In this document: positions 5,539-61,519 of the stretch, in pieces | Layout: each line of letters starts with the position of its first letter | Position numbering within the stretch: position 1 is the first letter of the stretch | Source: Glandiceps talaboti | Taxonomy: Eukaryota > Hemichordata > Enteropneusta > Spengelidae | DNA length: 64,000 bases | Reading direction: 5' to 3' | Assembly (NCBI RefSeq): GCF_964340395.1 | Contig: NC_135556.1 | Span: forward strand, 19,451,642 to 19,515,641 | Notes under the pieces: generated by a model | Told to the model about the DNA's origin: nothing | The model's database searches: none | Seen by the model: only the letters and a program-made list of their open reading frames with translations | Made by a program: the position numbers and the translations under genes

Positions 5539-8500
5539 TGAAGTGCCCATCACCTATCAAAAACCGTGACTTTGTTATGCAGAGATCATGGCTAGAAACC
5601 AGTACAGAGTACATTATCTTTAACCATTCAGTATGTCACAAGGTAAGTCTCTCATCTCCTACTTTCCTAGCAAACCTGTAGATGTGTAGGACTAATGCTG
5701 CAACATTATTTCCGTTAACCTGGCTGACATTTGGATTTTTTGAATTTTAGCGCGTCCAACAAGTCTGCTCTGACTCTTCATTTAATCTGGTATTAGGCCA
5801 CACCCTGCAACACATGACATGTGCAAAACATTAACATAAATTAGAATAGAATAAAATCTGTTTCCCAAGTAACCTCGCATGGAAACACCTAATTATGGAT
5901 TCATCATGTGACCTGATTGCATGTATGTATTTGACCAATCATGTTGTATGGTGGAATGCCATTCGAGACCAGTGTGAATGAAGAGCGAGAGTAGACTTAG
6001 ACAGTAGCTTTAGTCCTACATGTCTACAGGTAGGCTACTACCTTCCTTGTGTAATAGTAGAAACCTGTTGTTTGGCAGAACTATAGAAAAAGTTGATCCA
6101 GAACCAAAGAATGATCCTATGTAATCCTTATTACAATATCACTAATGCAATGACCCAGGATTGAAACATAGTCCCAATTTACAGACTGTGTGTTTAGTCA
6201 CTAATATGGAGACATCTCTGATTTGAATTCAGTCCATCTTATTGAAAAATACCTCACACATCAAATATACTTGCATGACTTGTTCTGAATGGCCTTGTTA
6301 ATTCCTTGGTAATCTTCTAGAAGCTGACATATCCTAACTTTGACAAGATACACTGACCCTAAATTCAAAGTTCACTGATGTTTCACATGATGTACTGCAT
6401 GCTTTCTGAGAAGTTGTAGAAAACACAGACGCTGGCATGCATAACTGATATGAATGGTGGTATCTGTACACTATGTATTGCAGTAAACAAGTGTACAATT
6501 CATGACCTCAAGTGAACTCGAGAAATTAGAATGACCCAATGACCATAGATGAATTTATAATAGAATCTTTGACATTCCACTTCATTAAATGTCTGTATTA
6601 AAATATGGTCTAGCTTGTTGTTACAGTTGCGTGATATTATAGTGAAATTTTCGTACAATTTTGCCTTAAAATTTGATTGGTATTCTGCTGTTTATAGAGT
6701 GCATAGCTGGGTTGTATATAGTGATATTAAGGTAGGGCTGTTAGAGTGCATAGCTAGCTTGGTATATAGTGACATTAAGGTAGGGATGTTAGAGTGCATA
6801 GCTAGGTTGGTATACAGTGACATTAAAGTAGGGATGTCAGAGTGTATAGATAGATTCCTATATAGTGACATTAAAGTAGGGATGTCAGAGTGTATAGATA
6901 GATTGTAATACATCATGTGAAACATCAGTGAACTTTGAATTTAGGGTCAGTGTATCTTGTCAAAGTTAGGATATGTCAGCTTCTAGAAGATTACCAAGGA
7001 ATTAACAAGGCCATTCAGAACAAGTCATGCAAGTATATTTGATGTGTGAGGTATTTTTCAATAAGATGGACTGAATTCAAATCAGAGATGACTCCATATT
7101 AGTGACTAAACACACAGTCTGTAAACTGGGGTATATGTTTCAATCCTGGGTCATTGCATTAATGTTATCGTAATAAGGATTACATAGGATCATTCTTTGG
7201 TTCTGGATCAACTTTTTGTATAACTCTACCAAACAACAGCTTTCTACACCAGTCCTAAATTTTAATCCTAATCCAGAGTGGATAGAGCTTACAGTGTAAA
7301 ATACAGGGGTGTGTTGTGTATTGTGTGGTGCAGAGACAGGACTTACAGTGTGAAATACAGGGGTGTGTTATGTGTTGTGCAGAGACAGGACTTGCAGTGT
7401 GGAATACAGGGGTGTGTTGTGTTGTGTTGTGCAGAGACAGGACTTACAGTGTAAAATACAGGGGTGTGTTGTGTTGTAAAGAGACGGGACGTACAGTGTG
7501 AAATACAGGGGTGTGTTGTGTGGTGCAGAGACAGGACTTCAGTGTAAAATACAGGGGTGTGTTGTGTTGTGCAGAGACAGGACTTACAGTGTGAAATACA
7601 GGGTGTGTTGTGTTGTAAAGAGACAGGACTTACAGTGTGAAATACAGGATGTGTTGTGTGGTGCAGAGACAGGACTTACAGTGTGAAATACAGGGGGGTG
7701 TTGTGTTGTGCAGAGACAGGACTTGCAGTGTGGAATACAGGGCTGTAATAGATATATTGCTATAAAAATGAATATTTCAAAAAGAAATCAAAGGTATATT
7801 TGTAATAATTTTTCTTATTTTAATACTGTGTTTTTGAAATGGACAGATATCAGAGGTGTGCTTTTGTGAAGAATAAATTGTGATAATTTGTAAATGAAAA
7901 GAAAAATGTTTCATTTCAATATCAATATCATTTCAGTATAACAAGTCGAAATGATTTGTTCATATATCTATGATATCGTTTATGCTTGCTAAAATGTATA
8001 ATTTGTCTTGATGTTATAATTTATGTTTGCTAATGTAGATATTTCTTATTGTTCTCATTTTGCAGGATCTTCAACCAAAGAAGGGGTTTGTGAGAGCAGA
8101 CACATACATCACAGGTTATCTTATAAGACCCAAGGGGAAGGGTTGTGAAATGACATACGTGTCACAGTCAGATCCTAAAGGTAGAAGTCTTTCTGATAAC
8201 AATTCTTCTTACCCCTTGTGTCTGCCAGGCTGTGGTATAACCCCAAGTCTTTCTGATAACAGTCCTTGTACCCCCTGTGTTGCCAGGCTGTGGTATAACC
8301 CCAAGTCTTTCTGATAACGATCCTTGTACCCCCTGTGCTGCCAGGCTGTGGTATGACCTAAAGTCCCTCTGATAATGATCCTTCTACCCCTTGTTTCTGC
8401 CAGCTATAGTATGACCCTGCTTTAGTACATGATACATTATTTTTAAAAAATGGCCTGATTTTCTTTTGCATTTGTGTTTATTATTACATATTTCAAGAAA

Positions 8501-23464: not shown

Positions 23465-23473
23465 CAACATCCT

Positions 23474-23979
23474 ACGAGTATAAAGTTGGCGTCAGATTCA
23501 GATTCAGATTCAGCTAGCGTCATATTGAGCGTCAGATTCAGCGTCAGATAGCGTCAGCTAGCGTCAGATCCGAAGACACCCGACGGACTCAATCAAACCT
23601 GAAATAATACTGTTTGGACGACAAGGGAAGATTCCACTCCACAAGCTTTTGATCGAAATTGGGATGTCTCTGCTTTTACAATTTTTATTTGGGGAATATA
23701 CGTGAAATAGAGTTGAAATACTTGTCACCGAGACATTGATAGCCCCAAGTTCAGCCACTGTATGTTCGTTGGTTGATACGTTTTGCCAATAATTTACACG
23801 GCGTCAGTAAAGGTGTCAGTAAAAATTAAGTTTACGTACGTAATATGTTGCCATACTTATGTTTTATTTACATTTGAAAGACTCTGAGATCTAGCTAGAC
23901 ATGTACCAGAGTTTGGTGTTACTGATAAACAACCTAGGAGGCCTCCAGATCTAGACGCATTGGTAAGTGTTACATTGTA
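23474..23979 (+). repeat. Left terminal inverted arm
   Basis: Mirrors 30204-30697. The outer part is rich in GCGTCAG and GATTCA words, giving clustered TGACGC motifs. The inner part contains the GAGATCTAGCTAGACATG block. It ends GACGCATTG followed by GTAAGTG, a good splice donor conserved in the other arm. It carries an extra ~12-bp GTGTCAGTAAA duplication relative to the right arm. The 64-codon minus-strand frame is shared with the other arm but shows no coding pattern of change. Confidence 0.88.
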
Positions 23980-24056
23980 TGCTGCGTTTGGAATACTGTA
24001 CACATGTAATAACATGGAAGTAAAGTCCAACTAAAGGAAGTAAAGTACAACTATAC

Positions 24057-24110
24057 ATATACACATACAACATTTGTACATACATACATACATGCATACA
24101 TACATACATG
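24057..24110. repeat. (CATA)n microsatellite
   Basis: CATACATACATGCATACATA tetranucleotide run inside the long-TIR element. Confidence 0.85.
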
Positions 24111-24758
24111 TCTGTCATCAGGTAAGGTTTAAAATCTGATTCTAGCTTTGCTGCTTGTTCAAACTCAAATGTCGGCTTAGTTGCATGCCCCACCGACCCC
24201 CTCTTTACATTACATAATAATTTATAGCATGTAGGGTATGTCTAGATTGTACACCCGAATTCGCCTGACTTGACATGAAGAGTTCTTCATAATGATTTAT
24301 TCACCACCATATTAGGCCCTAGATTATCATTTTGTCAAGTTCTGAAGATATATAACTATCTCGAATTGACAAAGGGCAAAAAATTGATCTCTGTTTATTA
24401 AACGCGTGGTTTTTGGTCATTCCACAGGTGTGTGGGTTCAGTGGGGATAAATTAAATAATCCCACATGAACAAAAGTACGTTTTTGAACTTTATCCTGAG
24501 CGGACAGCTTATGACAATTCCGATGACAAGTAACTTTAGCAAACCATTCTTCTGTTTAATCTTTCCCTGGTTCCAATAACAATCATTTAGAAAGGCCAGT
24601 AAATCAAAGCAGCAAAGTGTAAGAGATTAATTAACTTGTTGTAAAAGTTAATTTTGGGACATCAAGGCTGAATATTAATTCCTCCTCAGACTGTTTAATG
24701 GATGGAATAAAAATTTTGAGTAACCAGAAAGACGTCAACAGATCTCAGTGATAAGGCA

Positions 24759-24829
24759 TAGACAGACACACACACAAATATATATACACACATGCAGACA
24801 CATACATATAATATACATGCATGCATACA

Positions 24830-24871
<42 letters not shown>

Positions 24872-24982
24872 ATACATACATACACACACACACATACATA
24901 CATACATACATACATACATACATGATACATACATACATACATACATACATACATACATACATACATACACACATACACATAC

Positions 24983-25014
<32 letters not shown>

Positions 25015-25020
25015 GATACA
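24759..25020. repeat. Compound (CA)n/(CATA)n microsatellite
   Basis: Alternating CA and CATA runs of about 260 bp inside the long-TIR element. They generate spurious His/Thr/Ile frames on the plus strand and Val/Cys/Tyr frames on the minus strand. Confidence 0.95.
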
Positions 25021-25309
25021 TGCATATATGGTGCATGTATTCATACAGAGAGTCAATCAATCAAACAAGCAGCCAAAATTATACAGATGAAAATTAAATG
25101 TAATGTTCTTTGCTAGCTTTAGTAGATTGTAACTTTCTCTTTCCTTTTGTGTTACAGTGATGTCAACTTCAACACTAGGCTGGTGTTAATAAAGTGGTGA
25201 AATTATGAAGTGAAATCAAGATTAAATAATATTGAATTTGATTTATTTCCATGTCTGAACATTGGGCATAAAATGTACAATGCATCAAGCGCACTACAGT
25301 ACATTGAAG

Positions 25310-27317
25310 ATAGTACAGTACAGTACAGTACAGTACATTACAATACAGTACAGTATAGTATCGGTATAGAGTATAGTATAGTCTAGTAAAGTATAGTATA
25401 GTATAGTATAGTATAGTATAGTATAGTATAGTATAGTATAGTATAGTATAGTATAATGTAGTGTAGTACAGTACAGTACAATACAATACAGTATAGTATA
25501 GTACAGTACAGTACAGTATAGTATCGCATAGTATAGTACAGTACAGTATAGTACAGTACAGTTATAGTACGGTACAGTACACTATAGTATCGCACAGTAG
25601 AGTACAGTACAGTACAGTATAGTATAGTACTTTACAGTACAGTACAGTATAGTATAGTATAGTATTGTACAGTATAGTATAGTATAATGTAGTGTAGTAC
25701 AGTACAGTACAGTACAATACAGTACAGTATAGTATAGTACTGTACAGTACAGTATAGTGTAGTGTAGTACAGTACAGTACAGTATAGTATAGTATAGTAT
25801 AGTACAGTACTTTACATTTACAGTACAGTACAGTACAGTATAGTATTAGTGTAGTGTAGTACAGTACAGTGTAGTGTAGTACAGTACAGTATAGTATAGT
25901 ATAGTACAGTACTTTACATTTACAGTACAGTACAGTTCTATATAGTATTAGTATTAGTATAGTGTAGTACAGTACAGTACAGTACAGTACAGTATAGTAT
26001 AGTATAGTACAGTACACAGTATAGTATAGTGTAGTACAGTACAGTATAGTATAGTACAGTACTTTACAGTACAGTACAGTATAGTAAAGTATAGTATTAG
26101 TATAGTATAGTACAGTACAGTACAGTACAATACAGTATAGTATAGTATAGTATAGTACAGTACAGTATAGTATAGTATAGTGTAGTACAGTATAGTACAG
26201 TACAGTATAGTATAGTATAGTATAGTGCAGTGTAGTACAGTACAGTACAATACAGTACAGTATAGTATAGTATAGTACAGTACAGTATAGTATAGTATAG
26301 TGTAGTACAGTACAGTATAGTATAGTATTAGTGTAGTGTAGTACAGTACAGTACAGTATAGTATAGTACAGTACTTTACATTTACAGTACAGTACAGTTC
26401 TATATAGTATTAGTATTAGTGTAGTGTAGTACAGTGTAGTACAGTACAGTACAGTACAGTATAGTATAGTATAGTATAGTACAGTACTTTGCATTTACAG
26501 TACAGTACAGTTCTATTTAGTATTAGTATTAGTATTAGTGTAGTGTAGTACAGTACAGTACAGTACAATACAGTACAGTATAGTATAGTACAGTACACAG
26601 TATAGTATAGTGTAGTACAGTACAGTATAGTATAGTACAGTACTTTACAGTACAGTACAGTATAGTAAAGTATAGTATTAGTATAGTGTAGTGTAGTACA
26701 GTACAGTATAGTACAGTACAGTATAGTACAGTACAGTACAATACAGTACAGTATAGTATAGTATAGTACAGTACAGTGTAGTACAGTATAGTACAGTATA
26801 GTATAGTGCAGTGTAGTACAGTACAGTACAATACAGTACAGTATAGTATAGTACAGTACAGTATAGTATAGTATAGTGTAGTACAGTACAGTACAGTATA
26901 GTGTAGTACAGTACAGTACAGTATAGTATAGTATAGTGTAGTGTAGTACAATACAGTACAGTATAGTATAGTGTAGTGTAGTACAGTATAGTATAGTATA
27001 GTACAGTACAGTATAGTATAGTACAGTTTAGTATTAGTATAGTGTAGTGTAGTACACTACAGTATAGTATAGTATAGTATAGTATAGTACAGTATAGTAT
27101 AGTATACTAGTACAGTACTTTACAGTACAGTACAGTATAGTATAGTACAGTATAGTATTAGTATAGTGTAGTGTAGTACAGTACAGTGCAGTATAGTAGA
27201 GTATAGTACAGTACAGTACAGTACAGTACAGTACAGTATAGTATAGTATAGTATAGTATTGCATAGTATAGTACAGTATAGTATAGTACAGTACAGTATA
27301 GTATAGTATAGTATAGA
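25310..27317. repeat. 2-kb AGTAC/AGTAT pentamer satellite with ~580-bp higher-order period
   Basis: Almost every five bases read AGTAC or AGTAT (AGTAY), broken by recurrent islands such as CTTTACATTTACAG, TTCTATATAG and ATTAGTATTAG. Island combinations recur: AGTACACAGTATAG appears at 26011 and 26592, and the flanking order matches, implying a unit of about 581 bp. On the minus strand the pentamer contains no stop in any frame, which explains frames up to 310 codons of Tyr/Thr/Val/Leu/Cys. I do not regard these as proteins. Confidence 0.93.
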
Positions 27318-27913
27318 GGGGCTGACTGATGTATTAGTGTAGAGTCCCATCATGGCATACCTTCCAGCCCAGAATAAACAAGTTACATATTTATATTAAT
27401 GTATGGTTAACTATGTGCCACAATGTGGTGATGTTATTAAAGTTTATTTGGCCAGTCAGCAACTTTAGGTTGACCAGTCACACTTGTTTACTTGTGATAA
27501 TTAGAGACATTATTACTCGCATACAATTTAAGGTAAATTGTAAATTAGCATGATATGTTACAACCGATGACTTACTGTACATAAACAACTTTTGTGAATT
27601 TGCATAACATATGAAGGACACCTGGTGGCAAGTACAATCATCCAATAATATGGAGTATAGTTGTTTACATGTAACACTAGTATAAATGGACAATATTTGA
27701 AAGTTATGGGTGCTGATCCACAGAATTTGATGTGTGATAAAAGTACATTTCTGTAGTACTGTATGCTGTTGGATTCCTATACAATGTATGAGGAAGTTCT
27801 GAACTCTGTTACTGCTTGGAAACTCAACACTTTGCTGGGACTGTGAATACTACATTGCTTTGAACATAACTTGGCATTCATGAACAATGACAATCTTATC
27901 CATGAGGTGTGCA

Positions 27914-27956
<43 letters not shown>

Positions 27957-30203
27957 TGCAGTGCCAACAGTGTGTCCCAAGTCTACGCTTTGATACAACA
28001 CAAATGAGACTTTACAATAAACATTACCAGTAGTTTTATTTTCCATAACCAGCCATCAGTAATTTTATAGGTTTAAGCATAGTTTTTTTCATACAGGCAG
28101 ATTCGCTGTACAAGTGTTGTATTTTGTTATTTAGAGATAAATGAGATAAAGTAAAACCTTTGATGTGTGTGTGAGTTCTTTCTTATTTCTCCAGTAGTTG
28201 TGTTCCTCCTCCATCTGGTACTTAGAAAAACTTGGCTTTCATGACAATATGGTAATATAGTACCATGCATGCAGCACAGTAAATTATAGCACAGAACAGT
28301 GTAGTGTAGTGTAGTATATTGTAAAGTACAGTGCGTGTTCCAGAAAATATTAAACATGAGGTTTCTAAGCCTTGGCTTCCACATTTCTAATTAGTGATGT
28401 TGGGGAGAGCAATGATGTTATTCTGTTCAGTAATTGCATTGTGGGAATTTATTGGTATTTGAAATATAAACAAGTAGAGAAGAAATAAACACAAATATGC
28501 ACAATGCAAAAAAAAGTACTTTCATTCTCTCCATTGAGATGTTGAATGGGCATATCAGACTGGTTTATTTGTAAGTCTGATAGGAACTCAGCTGGTAGAA
28601 ATATATTCAATTATCAACATAAAACAATACACAATCCTTTGTAAAGATTGTCTCTTCTAAAATAGATTCCATCTTGTAACTTCGACAAGGCAGAACTGTG
28701 TGTTGATTCCTCTTTTTAGCTCCTGTGTGGGAGCTGATGTCATGGTGCTGTGTGTCTGCAGAATTCCACTGCAGAATTTCCATTGATGTCTCAAAAAGCA
28801 CTGAAGCAAATGTTCTGCAACTTACTATGTGGCATTGTCTGGCAGTAATTTGGCACTGATTAGGTTTTGGTGGGAGTGGATTCAAAAATTAATACTAATT
28901 TGCATAATGATTTATGCATAATTATGATAAATGGGGCTATACATGCAGAAGAAATTCAATGAAACTTGCTACATCTACAGATCATACAATGATATAAAAG
29001 AGTTGTCAAGTTAATTAAGGGCTAATTTGCATAATAAATGTATGTTTGTAACTCCGGTTATGCATCTAGAAGGGTTTTATCAAATTTGATGAAACTTGCC
29101 GCAGATATTGATCATACAGAGATATGATAGTTCTTAATGAAATTTAGTGCTGTCAATTTGGATACTTAACGAATGTTGTCAGTTAGGGCCTAAACCGAGA
29201 TTACACCAAATTTGATTAAACTTGCTAAATATATTGACCAAGCAAATATTTGATGTTATTGAGTCAATCAATTGCTAATTTGTATAGTTGATGAACTTTT
29301 GGAACATGGGATATATTTCTCTGAATGGGAGCATGTTCAGTTTATTGCTGGTTGATATGTGTTGTGTTATTGATCAGTACAGAACAAGGGGCAGCAAGAC
29401 TACATCTTTCACCAATTCCTACCCCAGTTGATGATATTTTCCTCTAGGACATCCTGAATACCATAACAATTATATACTTCCATCTTGGCTTCTAAGGCAT
29501 AGATAATTCAGTAGAAGCATGCAAAACTTATTTGAAAGCAATGATGCTCACATCTTTGTTAAATAATTGACCCAGGGAGCACAATTTTAAGTGGAAAAAC
29601 AATAAGTTACTTGTAAGAAAAATAAATGTTTGATTTTATAATAATGCACTGCCTCTACCCACACAGTGTTAAATTCAATGAATTAATTCTTTCGATGGTA
29701 AATGAAAAATTACAGTTAATGTTGTGATTATTAAGCCTTATATGTACCAACTTCATGGGGATAGGTAAATAATGCAATAAAGCACATCAATTCATACAAA
29801 CTGTATATACCTATAATTGTATTTGATACTTATTAGAAAATGTAACGAACATCACAATGATATCTTGTAATTATACATCCTTTACAATTATGATCCATCA
29901 TAGGGTGACAGACATTATTAACTAACTCAGATTAATATCATCTTGACTGCACTGATCTATCAGCCCAATGCTGTTGTTTTCTAGATAAATAGCCAATGTA
30001 CTACAGGTTATATACTTTTCAATGTGTGATTTAAATGTGTTAATCTTCAGGCCACTTCAAAATGGACATAAATAATAAACTTATGATACATTACACACAT
30101 ACACAAAGTGAAAGGTAGACACAGTTTCATGAACAATACTCTCAACAAAAATCTTTATTCATTAAATACCTAAAATAGGTTAATGCATCGATGGTTACAA
30201 CGA
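27318..30203. other. Interior of the long-TIR element, no gene seen
   Basis: Contains a GT microsatellite at 27911-27953. At about 28890-29290 a diverged repeat of about 120 bp recurs three times, marked by TTTGATGAAACTTGC-type and ATTGATCATACA words. No spliced or intact transposase was recognised on either strand. Confidence 0.5.
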
Positions 30204-30697
30204 CACAATGTAAGACTTACCAATTGCGTCTAGATCTGGAGGCCTTCTACGTTTTATCAGTAACACCAAACTCTGGTACATGTCTAGCTAGATCTCAGAG
30301 GCTTTCAAATGTGCATAAAAACATAAGTATGGCAACATATTACGCACGTAAATTTAATTTTTACTGACGCCGTGTAAATTATTGGCAAAACGTATCAACC
30401 AACGAACATACAGTGGACGAACTTGGGGCTATCAATGTCTCGGTGACAAGTATTTCAACTCTATTTCACGTGTTTTTCCGAAATAAAAATTGTAAAAGCA
30501 GAGACATCCCAACTTCCATCAAAAGCTTGTGGAGTGGAATCTTCCCCTGTCGTCTCAACGGTATTAATTCAGGTTTGATTGAGTCCGTCGGGTGTCTTCG
30601 GATCTGACGCTAGCTGACGCTATCTGACGCTGAATCTGACGCTCAATATGACGCTAGCTGAATCTGAATCTGAATCTGACGCCAACTTTATACTCGT
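30204..30697 (-). repeat. Right terminal inverted arm
   Basis: Inverted copy of 23474-23979, with the same clustered TGACGC words at its outer end and the same inward-facing donor (ACTTAC on the plus strand at 30215-30220). Its outer tip is 282 bp from the RPS3A start codon. Confidence 0.88.
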
Positions 30698-30706
30698 CAA
30701 CATCCT

Positions 30707-30979: not shown

Positions 30980-35483
<4,504 letters not shown>

Positions 35484-43189: not shown

Positions 43190-61519
<18,330 letters not shown>

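Follow-up and report, generated by a model that had tools for sequence, protein, structure and literature searches.

A non-autonomous, Foldback-shaped transposon family, probably Mutator-like, in the hemichordate Glandiceps talaboti

We analyzed a stretch of 64,000 nucleotides from the genome of the acorn worm Glandiceps talaboti (assembly GCF_964340395.1, contig NC_135556.1, positions 19,451,642 to 19,515,641 of the forward strand; hereafter the window, with position 1 as its first letter), which harbors a 7.2-kb transposon with long terminal inverted repeats (TIRs, or arms) between two copies of a 9-bp target site duplication (TSD). The element likely belongs to a non-autonomous cut-and-paste family with long composite arms of the Foldback type, for which a Mutator-like (MULE) transposase acts in trans. 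The Foldback-like shape is supported by the data presented here, while membership in Mutator is the best inference. Compared with the open literature, this hemichordate family is new but of an established type, being Foldback-shaped and probably Mutator-like.

Structure of the element

A preliminary description, made from the sequence alone, had claimed exactly mirrored tips with the same short sequence immediately outside both ends and arms of about 500 bp. Accordingly, the tips ACGAGTATAAAG (left) and CTTTATACTCGT (right) are exact mirror images, CAACATCCT directly adjoins both of them, and the arms measure 505 and 493 bp (Table 1). Based on base composition, the probability that nine bases agree between two given positions is about 8e-6. 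As a control, identical 9-mers at the same distance were found at 4 of 56,758 window positions, three of which represent the TSD repeat itself, since the last two bases are GT in the left flank as well as in the right tip. Strictly, the direct repeat around the element comprises 11 bp (GTCAACATCCT); the length of the duplication was set at 9 bp because the tips are symmetric and other copies agree. CAACATCCT is present four times in the window, twice as the TSD, compared to 0.72 expected occurrences, and one of 100 shuffled sequences reaches four.

The two arms are 92.7% identical over 507 columns including gaps. All 22 substitutions are located nearer the middle of the element and none within the outermost 130 bp (Fisher p 0.002, with an estimated 491 aligned bases). 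Behind a tip of 15 bp, units of the GCGTCA type begin and follow each other in steps of 28, 12, 12, 10 and 10 bp. The window contains 13 instances of the heptamer GCGTCAG, compared to 0.92 expected, and 12 of these lie inside the arms. The GCGTCAG and GATTCA repeats of which the outer arms had been said to be built are hence present, but they fill only about 80 bp per arm, and the inner 400 bp are not repetitive.

Table 1. Features of the transposon copy in the window
Feature	Position	Strand	Basis or remark
Transposon body	23474-30697		precise ends, inverted arms and flanking 9-bp duplication
Left TSD, CAACATCCT, 9 bp	23465-23473	+	base comparison
Right TSD, CAACATCCT, 9 bp	30698-30706	+	base comparison
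Left TIR, 505 bp	23474-23978	+	self-alignment; homologous arms elsewhere in the genome
Right TIR, 493 bp	30205-30697	-	self-alignment
Left arm, outer 130 bp	23474-23603	+	no difference from the right arm or from either arm of L009 and L010
Right arm, outer 130 bp	30568-30697	-	arm alignment
Left-arm subterminal GCGTCA-type repeats	23489-23569	+	starts 23489, 23517, 23529, 23541, 23551, 23561
Right-arm mirror subterminal repeats	30602-30682	-	motif count, tandem-repeat scan
Left-arm exon counterpart, 68 nt	23895-23962	+	frame broken; donor TTG/GTAAGT at 23963
Right-arm exon counterpart, 67 nt, LDMYQSLVLLIKRRRPPDLDAI	30221-30287	-	open; donor at 30220
Left interior	23979-24799	+	without Pfam match; common to sister copies
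ACAT microsatellite	24800-25026	+	tandem-repeat scan
2.0-kb array of 5-bp units AGTAT/AGTAC	25310-27316	+	Tandem Repeats Finder, 2007 bp
Right interior	27317-30204	+	no coding signal found

The family across the genome

A genome-wide search with the arm, as had been suggested, resulted in 73 listed matches, taken from 40 scored of 470 candidates, and identified copies at other sites that end at the same tip and possess 9-bp duplications of their own. Rather than ending at other positions, which had been named as the outcome that would argue for a plain inverted duplication, 66 of the 73 listed matches begin within query positions 1-14, where position 10 corresponds to the tip. In the genome, 274 exact matches to the 22-bp tip were counted (142 forward, 132 reverse), and none to the reversed control sequence. 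Among the first 100 listed tip sites, 23 neighbouring pairs face inward at less than 20 kb from each other: four of 64-145 bp, six of 236-250 bp, eleven of 546-594 bp, one of 2223 bp and one of 5770 bp. Short forms resembling miniature inverted-repeat transposable elements (MITEs) thus measure about 240 and 590 bp. A scan of viral contigs for the tip led nowhere, as did a sigma-70 scan, which has no bearing on animal DNA.

In addition to the window copy, four long copies with a common interior were found, L009 (6891 bp), L010 (6420 bp), L011 (5770 bp) and L012 (6594 bp). The right part together with its arm (27317-30697) is 99.5, 98.8, 98.9 and 97.8% identical between the window copy and these four, respectively, the alignment with L009 spanning 3361 bp. 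Given this near-identity of the long copies, the family has probably moved recently.

Several further observations concern individual family members. L013-L016 are one-ended within the 10 kb taken, and L014 and L016 are duplicates of each other. Beside the one-ended arm of L015, at L015:2656-6245, two open reading frames (482 and 428 aa) resemble, by eye, the proteins of another transposon, and the interior of the 2.2-kb element L053 resembles, likewise by eye, a reverse-transcriptase fragment. Two stretches of C6 contain series of exact tips that all point the same way, spaced by about 33-39 kb (14707665-14846540) and about 7.4 kb (22911154-22926016), which suggests that these arms are located inside larger tandem duplications.

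Target duplications and an empty site

The flanks of 16 two-ended copies were inspected for duplications at single-base level; this set leaves out L013-L016 as well as L022 and L026, whose right end is incomplete. A perfect 9-bp TSD was found in ten of them, namely all five long copies (window copy, L009-L012) and L017, L018, L019, L020 and L027, the last of which has a duplication consisting mostly of a T run and is weak evidence taken alone. By eye, the TSD sequences display no obvious consensus.

L011 has a compound end. At L011:262-6466 (C6), the long copy is nested in a short family member and therefore ends in two right tips; no TSD is found with the outer one, and a perfect TSD with the inner one. 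When L011 and one TAGTATTTC are removed, the flank aligns without a break across the junction with short copies, the best match being L027 (96.3% over 429 bp). The rejoined short member represents a related empty site, into which the long copy jumped with precision, and the nested pair shows precise insertion.

Identical inverted ends with target duplications at many sites, and an empty site in the case of the sister copy L011, are what is to be expected of a cut-and-paste transposon. A plain inverted duplication or an assembly artefact would account for the inverted geometry only. This explanation, to which we attach next to no probability, is refuted by the genome-wide arm matches, by the 274 exact tips, by copies elsewhere that share the same ends and a common interior and carry their own 9-bp TSDs, and by the related empty site of L011.

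Evolution of the arms

Left arms are on average 97.6% identical to the left arms of other copies and right arms 98.2% to other right arms, while the two arms of a single copy reach 95.1-96.7%. As likeness on the same side exceeds that within a copy, the difference between left and right is ancestral and older than the insertions. Arm divergence was accordingly rejected as a clock for the age of a copy. The outer 130 columns depart from this pattern. Here the six arms of the window copy, L009 and L010 show no difference at all; a 10-bp stretch is missing from the left and the right arm of L011 alike, and the outer domains of the two arms of L012 differ from each other. Along the left arm, the five long copies display 0, 0, 0, 2 and 2 differences in the outer domain, and stretches of 10, 22 or 44 bp are absent from the outer domain of some arms. 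The identity of the outer domain fits constraint or homogenisation acting on the segment needed for recognition by a transposase. In Galileo, repeats within the long TIRs are described to bind the transposase (PMC3688188), and by analogy the GCGTCA subterminal repeats may be the binding sites here.

Interior and coding capacity

The interior had been described as almost entirely satellite and microsatellite, which proved wrong: four counted tandem arrays, chiefly the AGTAT/AGTAC array, cover 2332 bp (37%) of an interior of 6226 bp. In the sister copies the satellite extends over 1680 (L009), 1309 (L010), 895 (L011) and 1420 bp (L012), lengths that were measured by another rule than the 2007 bp determined for the window copy by Tandem Repeats Finder. 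The related copies of 5.8-7.2 kb with a 5-bp satellite of about 0.9 to 2.0 kb may hence serve as a natural series for satellite change within a transposon.

Six-frame translation of the non-satellite parts of the window copy's interior gave no Pfam domain, including no transposase and no PHD finger, which bears out the earlier statement that a transposase is not visible. By the same Pfam scan, the interior of this copy contains no domain that would indicate a host gene fragment of the Pack-MULE type. Similarly, no codon pattern was found in the right part of the five long copies. A coding interior was rejected on these grounds, and the proposed non-autonomous nature of the family fits them. 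A protein search with a 79-aa open reading frame of the arm returned nothing informative, an Rfam search gave no match, and one arm folded as a single strand did no better than shuffled sequences.

An exon-like stretch and splice donor in the arms

Near the inner edge of both arms resides the sequence TTG/GTAAGT (the slash marking the splice position), which has a donor score of 8.06 in a splice-site profile built from 24 introns of the PDS5 gene in the window and thus falls within the range of real donors. About 0.34 donors scoring as well are expected per 500 bp, so that this is weak evidence alone. When the open stretch preceding the donor was searched against proteins, a single one among 10 candidates matched (E 3.2e-4), an ACC-synthase-like protein of Glandiceps in which 23 of 23 residues are identical, the match ending at the donor. 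According to the gene model, which is located on the minus strand of C6, residues 1-72 are encoded at about 17220932-17220717 and residues 73-134 end at 17219291. L011 (C6 17213270-17219039) lies inside an intron of this predicted gene, and its right arm would supply residues 135-157 as a 67-nt exon (17218639-17218573), with the next exon following from about 17209104. The use of the arm exon is predicted by the gene model, and offers a testable example of how the arm of a transposon may contribute to the splicing of a host gene.

Thirteen of the 73 listed arm matches reach the inner arm end, and all 13 have kept the donor; the open MYQSLV..RRPPDLDA stretch is kept in nine of the 13 (eight of 12 if L014 and L016 are counted once). 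With the donor always retained and the frame mostly open, long-armed copies in introns could donate a ready-made exon of 66-68 nt. Nevertheless, a general role of full-length arms as a mobile splice cassette appears rather doubtful, the more so as most short copies stop before the exon-like stretch, which would confine the cassette to a long-armed minority. The acceptors in the arms of the window copy, which score -1.8 and -2.2 and thus close to the lowest values of real acceptors, also argue against an arm exon. As for its origin, the MYQSLV stretch may be the initial coding exon of the missing transposase.

The transposase that moves the family

With regard to the features by which MULEs are recognized, TSDs of 8-11 bp and long TIRs that commonly comprise hundreds of bp, the family has perfect 9-bp TSDs in 10 of 16 two-ended copies and arms of some 500 bp. 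As in Foldback elements, the long arms possess a repetitive outer domain with varying repeat number, and no coding capacity was detected between them (Pfam for the window copy, codon pattern for the five right parts). The MULE domain PF10551 has 31 matches in the same genome; among six frames of 282-607 residues from such loci, five score above the Pfam cut-off and one just below. Thus, of the assignment to Mutator-like or Foldback-type elements made previously, the Foldback shape is supported, but the Mutator-like part stands as the best inference.

Some results weigh against a MULE-driven family. No arm match (E 1e-3) was found at 22 of the 31 MULE loci, 12 of them examined in 3.2-kb stretches, which may end before the element does, and 10 in 10-kb stretches; the MULE-encoding relative with these arms that had been anticipated was hence not found among these 22. 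Six of the 16 two-ended copies have no perfect TSD (L024 and L053 match at 8 of 9 positions, L023 at 7, L028 at 6, L021 at 3 and L025 at 2), the outer domain of L013 differs at several places, and elements other than MULEs can also have 9-bp TSDs.

The nearest rival is a mover of the Rehavkus type, a sister group of MULEs with 9-bp TSDs and TIRs of 26-400 bp, in which a minisatellite precedes the 3' TIR (PMC6446971). The family described here shares the 9-bp TSDs and an internal array. We consider a Rehavkus-type transposase improbable, as the arms are about 500 bp long, the array of 5-bp units ends 2.9 kb from the right arm instead of just before it, the PHD finger is absent from the window copy by Pfam, and Rehavkus is reported in the above source from arthropods and annelids only. 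A mover from another superfamily (Merlin, P/Galileo-like or undescribed) that leaves 9 bp and has Foldback-shaped arms seems slightly less probable still. The Foldback shape arises in unrelated superfamilies, such as in Galileo with its P-type transposase (PMC3688188, PMC3169594), and the lack of a MULE partner among the loci examined would be in line with such an origin. However, all ten perfect TSDs are 9 bp long. P-type and hAT elements leave TSDs of 7-8 bp, which counts against a mover of the P or hAT type.

If a MULE transposase is the mover, it would be made elsewhere and bind the GCGTCA repeats, spaced by 10-12 bp, in the outer 80 bp. The bound transposase would then pair both tips and cut at ACGAGT...ACTCGT, upon which the element would insert into a 9-bp staggered cut. 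The interior would be filler only, its 5-bp satellite varying in length between copies, and the inner part of a full-length arm, with exon-like stretch and splice donor, could be spliced into a host transcript.

Genomic surroundings

To the left of the element, a PDZ exon is located on the minus strand near 20.6-20.7 kb; to the right resides the gene for ribosomal protein S3Ae (PF01015, E 1.4e-51). Its start codon is presumably at 30980, 283 bp past the right arm, the first exon having been assigned by resemblance. The element thus lies between two genes and likely close to the S3Ae promoter. Muta1 and plant MULEs have been suggested to prefer genic regions (PMC5225508); a single intergenic site proves no such preference for the family in Glandiceps.

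PDS5 is encoded in the window exon by exon from 43190 to 61047, and its residues match the Glandiceps talaboti protein P0002 with the exception of exon edges. At 45078-45823, a PDS5 intron contains a minisatellite of 13 copies of 56 bp which repeats the 3' splice acceptor and the start of the next exon, so that a series of similar-looking acceptors leads up to the real exon. An inverted repeat in a PDS5 intron (46104-46500) has ends that measure roughly 35 bp. At 6057-7247, a further inverted repeat spans about 1.2 kb; its arms are 90-97% complementary and enclose a 48-bp minisatellite, and inspection by eye revealed no target duplication. Finally, a near-palindrome of 248 bp between S3Ae exons (32052-32299) has TA at both ends and, by eye, is possibly a MITE of the mariner type.

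Comparison with known systems

The TU elements of the sea urchin, which belongs to a related deuterostome phylum, possess long terminal inverted repeats, and the likeness is one of description only. By text search of the open literature, we found no work joining the Glandiceps talaboti genome and transposons and no Foldback or Mutator-like family described from hemichordates. The main text of PMC11175523, on hemichordates and transposons, has no mention of MULE or Mutator, and a paper on a long interspersed nuclear element (LINE) of a snail parasite mentions, as far as its relevant part goes, a LINE of an acorn worm and not a MULE; another paper that the search brought up concerns a family of Medicago.

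Animal MULEs are described to have TSDs of 8-9 bp, long TIRs, subterminal repeats of 9-15 bp (in 10 of 12 long-TIR families of Aedes aegypti) and non-autonomous copies with heterogeneous interiors (PMC5225508). Muta1 and related MULEs of Aedes aegypti share with our family the 8-9-bp TSD, non-autonomous copies that keep the ends, and, in Aedes aegypti MULEs, TIRs composed of a short terminal motif followed by subterminal tandem repeats; this comparison is one of design, not of sequence. In contrast, Muta1 encodes a transposase of 504 residues (PMC5225508), whereas in Glandiceps a 7-kb satellite-bearing form has been amplified and no coding copy was found. Phantom (MULE group 20) is similar in its TSDs of 8-10 bp and TIRs of 18-613 bp, has tunicates among its hosts and, in aphids, carries a minisatellite after the transposase frame, but is defined by its transposase (PMC6446971), none of which was seen in the window copy. 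Rehavkus, with 9-bp TSD, long TIR and internal tandem array, differs by its PHD-finger transposase and an array beside the 3' TIR (PMC6446971), neither seen in the window copy.

Among Foldback-shaped elements, Tetris of Drosophila virilis has TSDs of 8-10 bp, Foldback arms without a transposase found, arrays within the element and a MITE sharing its ends; its arrays, however, consist of 220-bp units inside the arms (PMC4079207), whereas the 5-bp array in Glandiceps lies between them. Tm1, a Mutator/Foldback element of Meloidogyne, also has a 9-bp TSD, composite TIRs with a variable number of short repeats, and non-coding and MITE-like forms, and differs by asymmetric outer motifs of 7 bp (PMC3169594). 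Kinship with Tm1 through its 14-bp arm repeat was rejected, as 68 of 1000 shuffled sequences score as high. Thus, with a 9-bp TSD, long arms and subterminal repeats of 10-12 bp, the design matches that of animal MULEs and Tm1, to which the present study adds a Foldback-shaped and probably recently mobile transposon family from a hemichordate.

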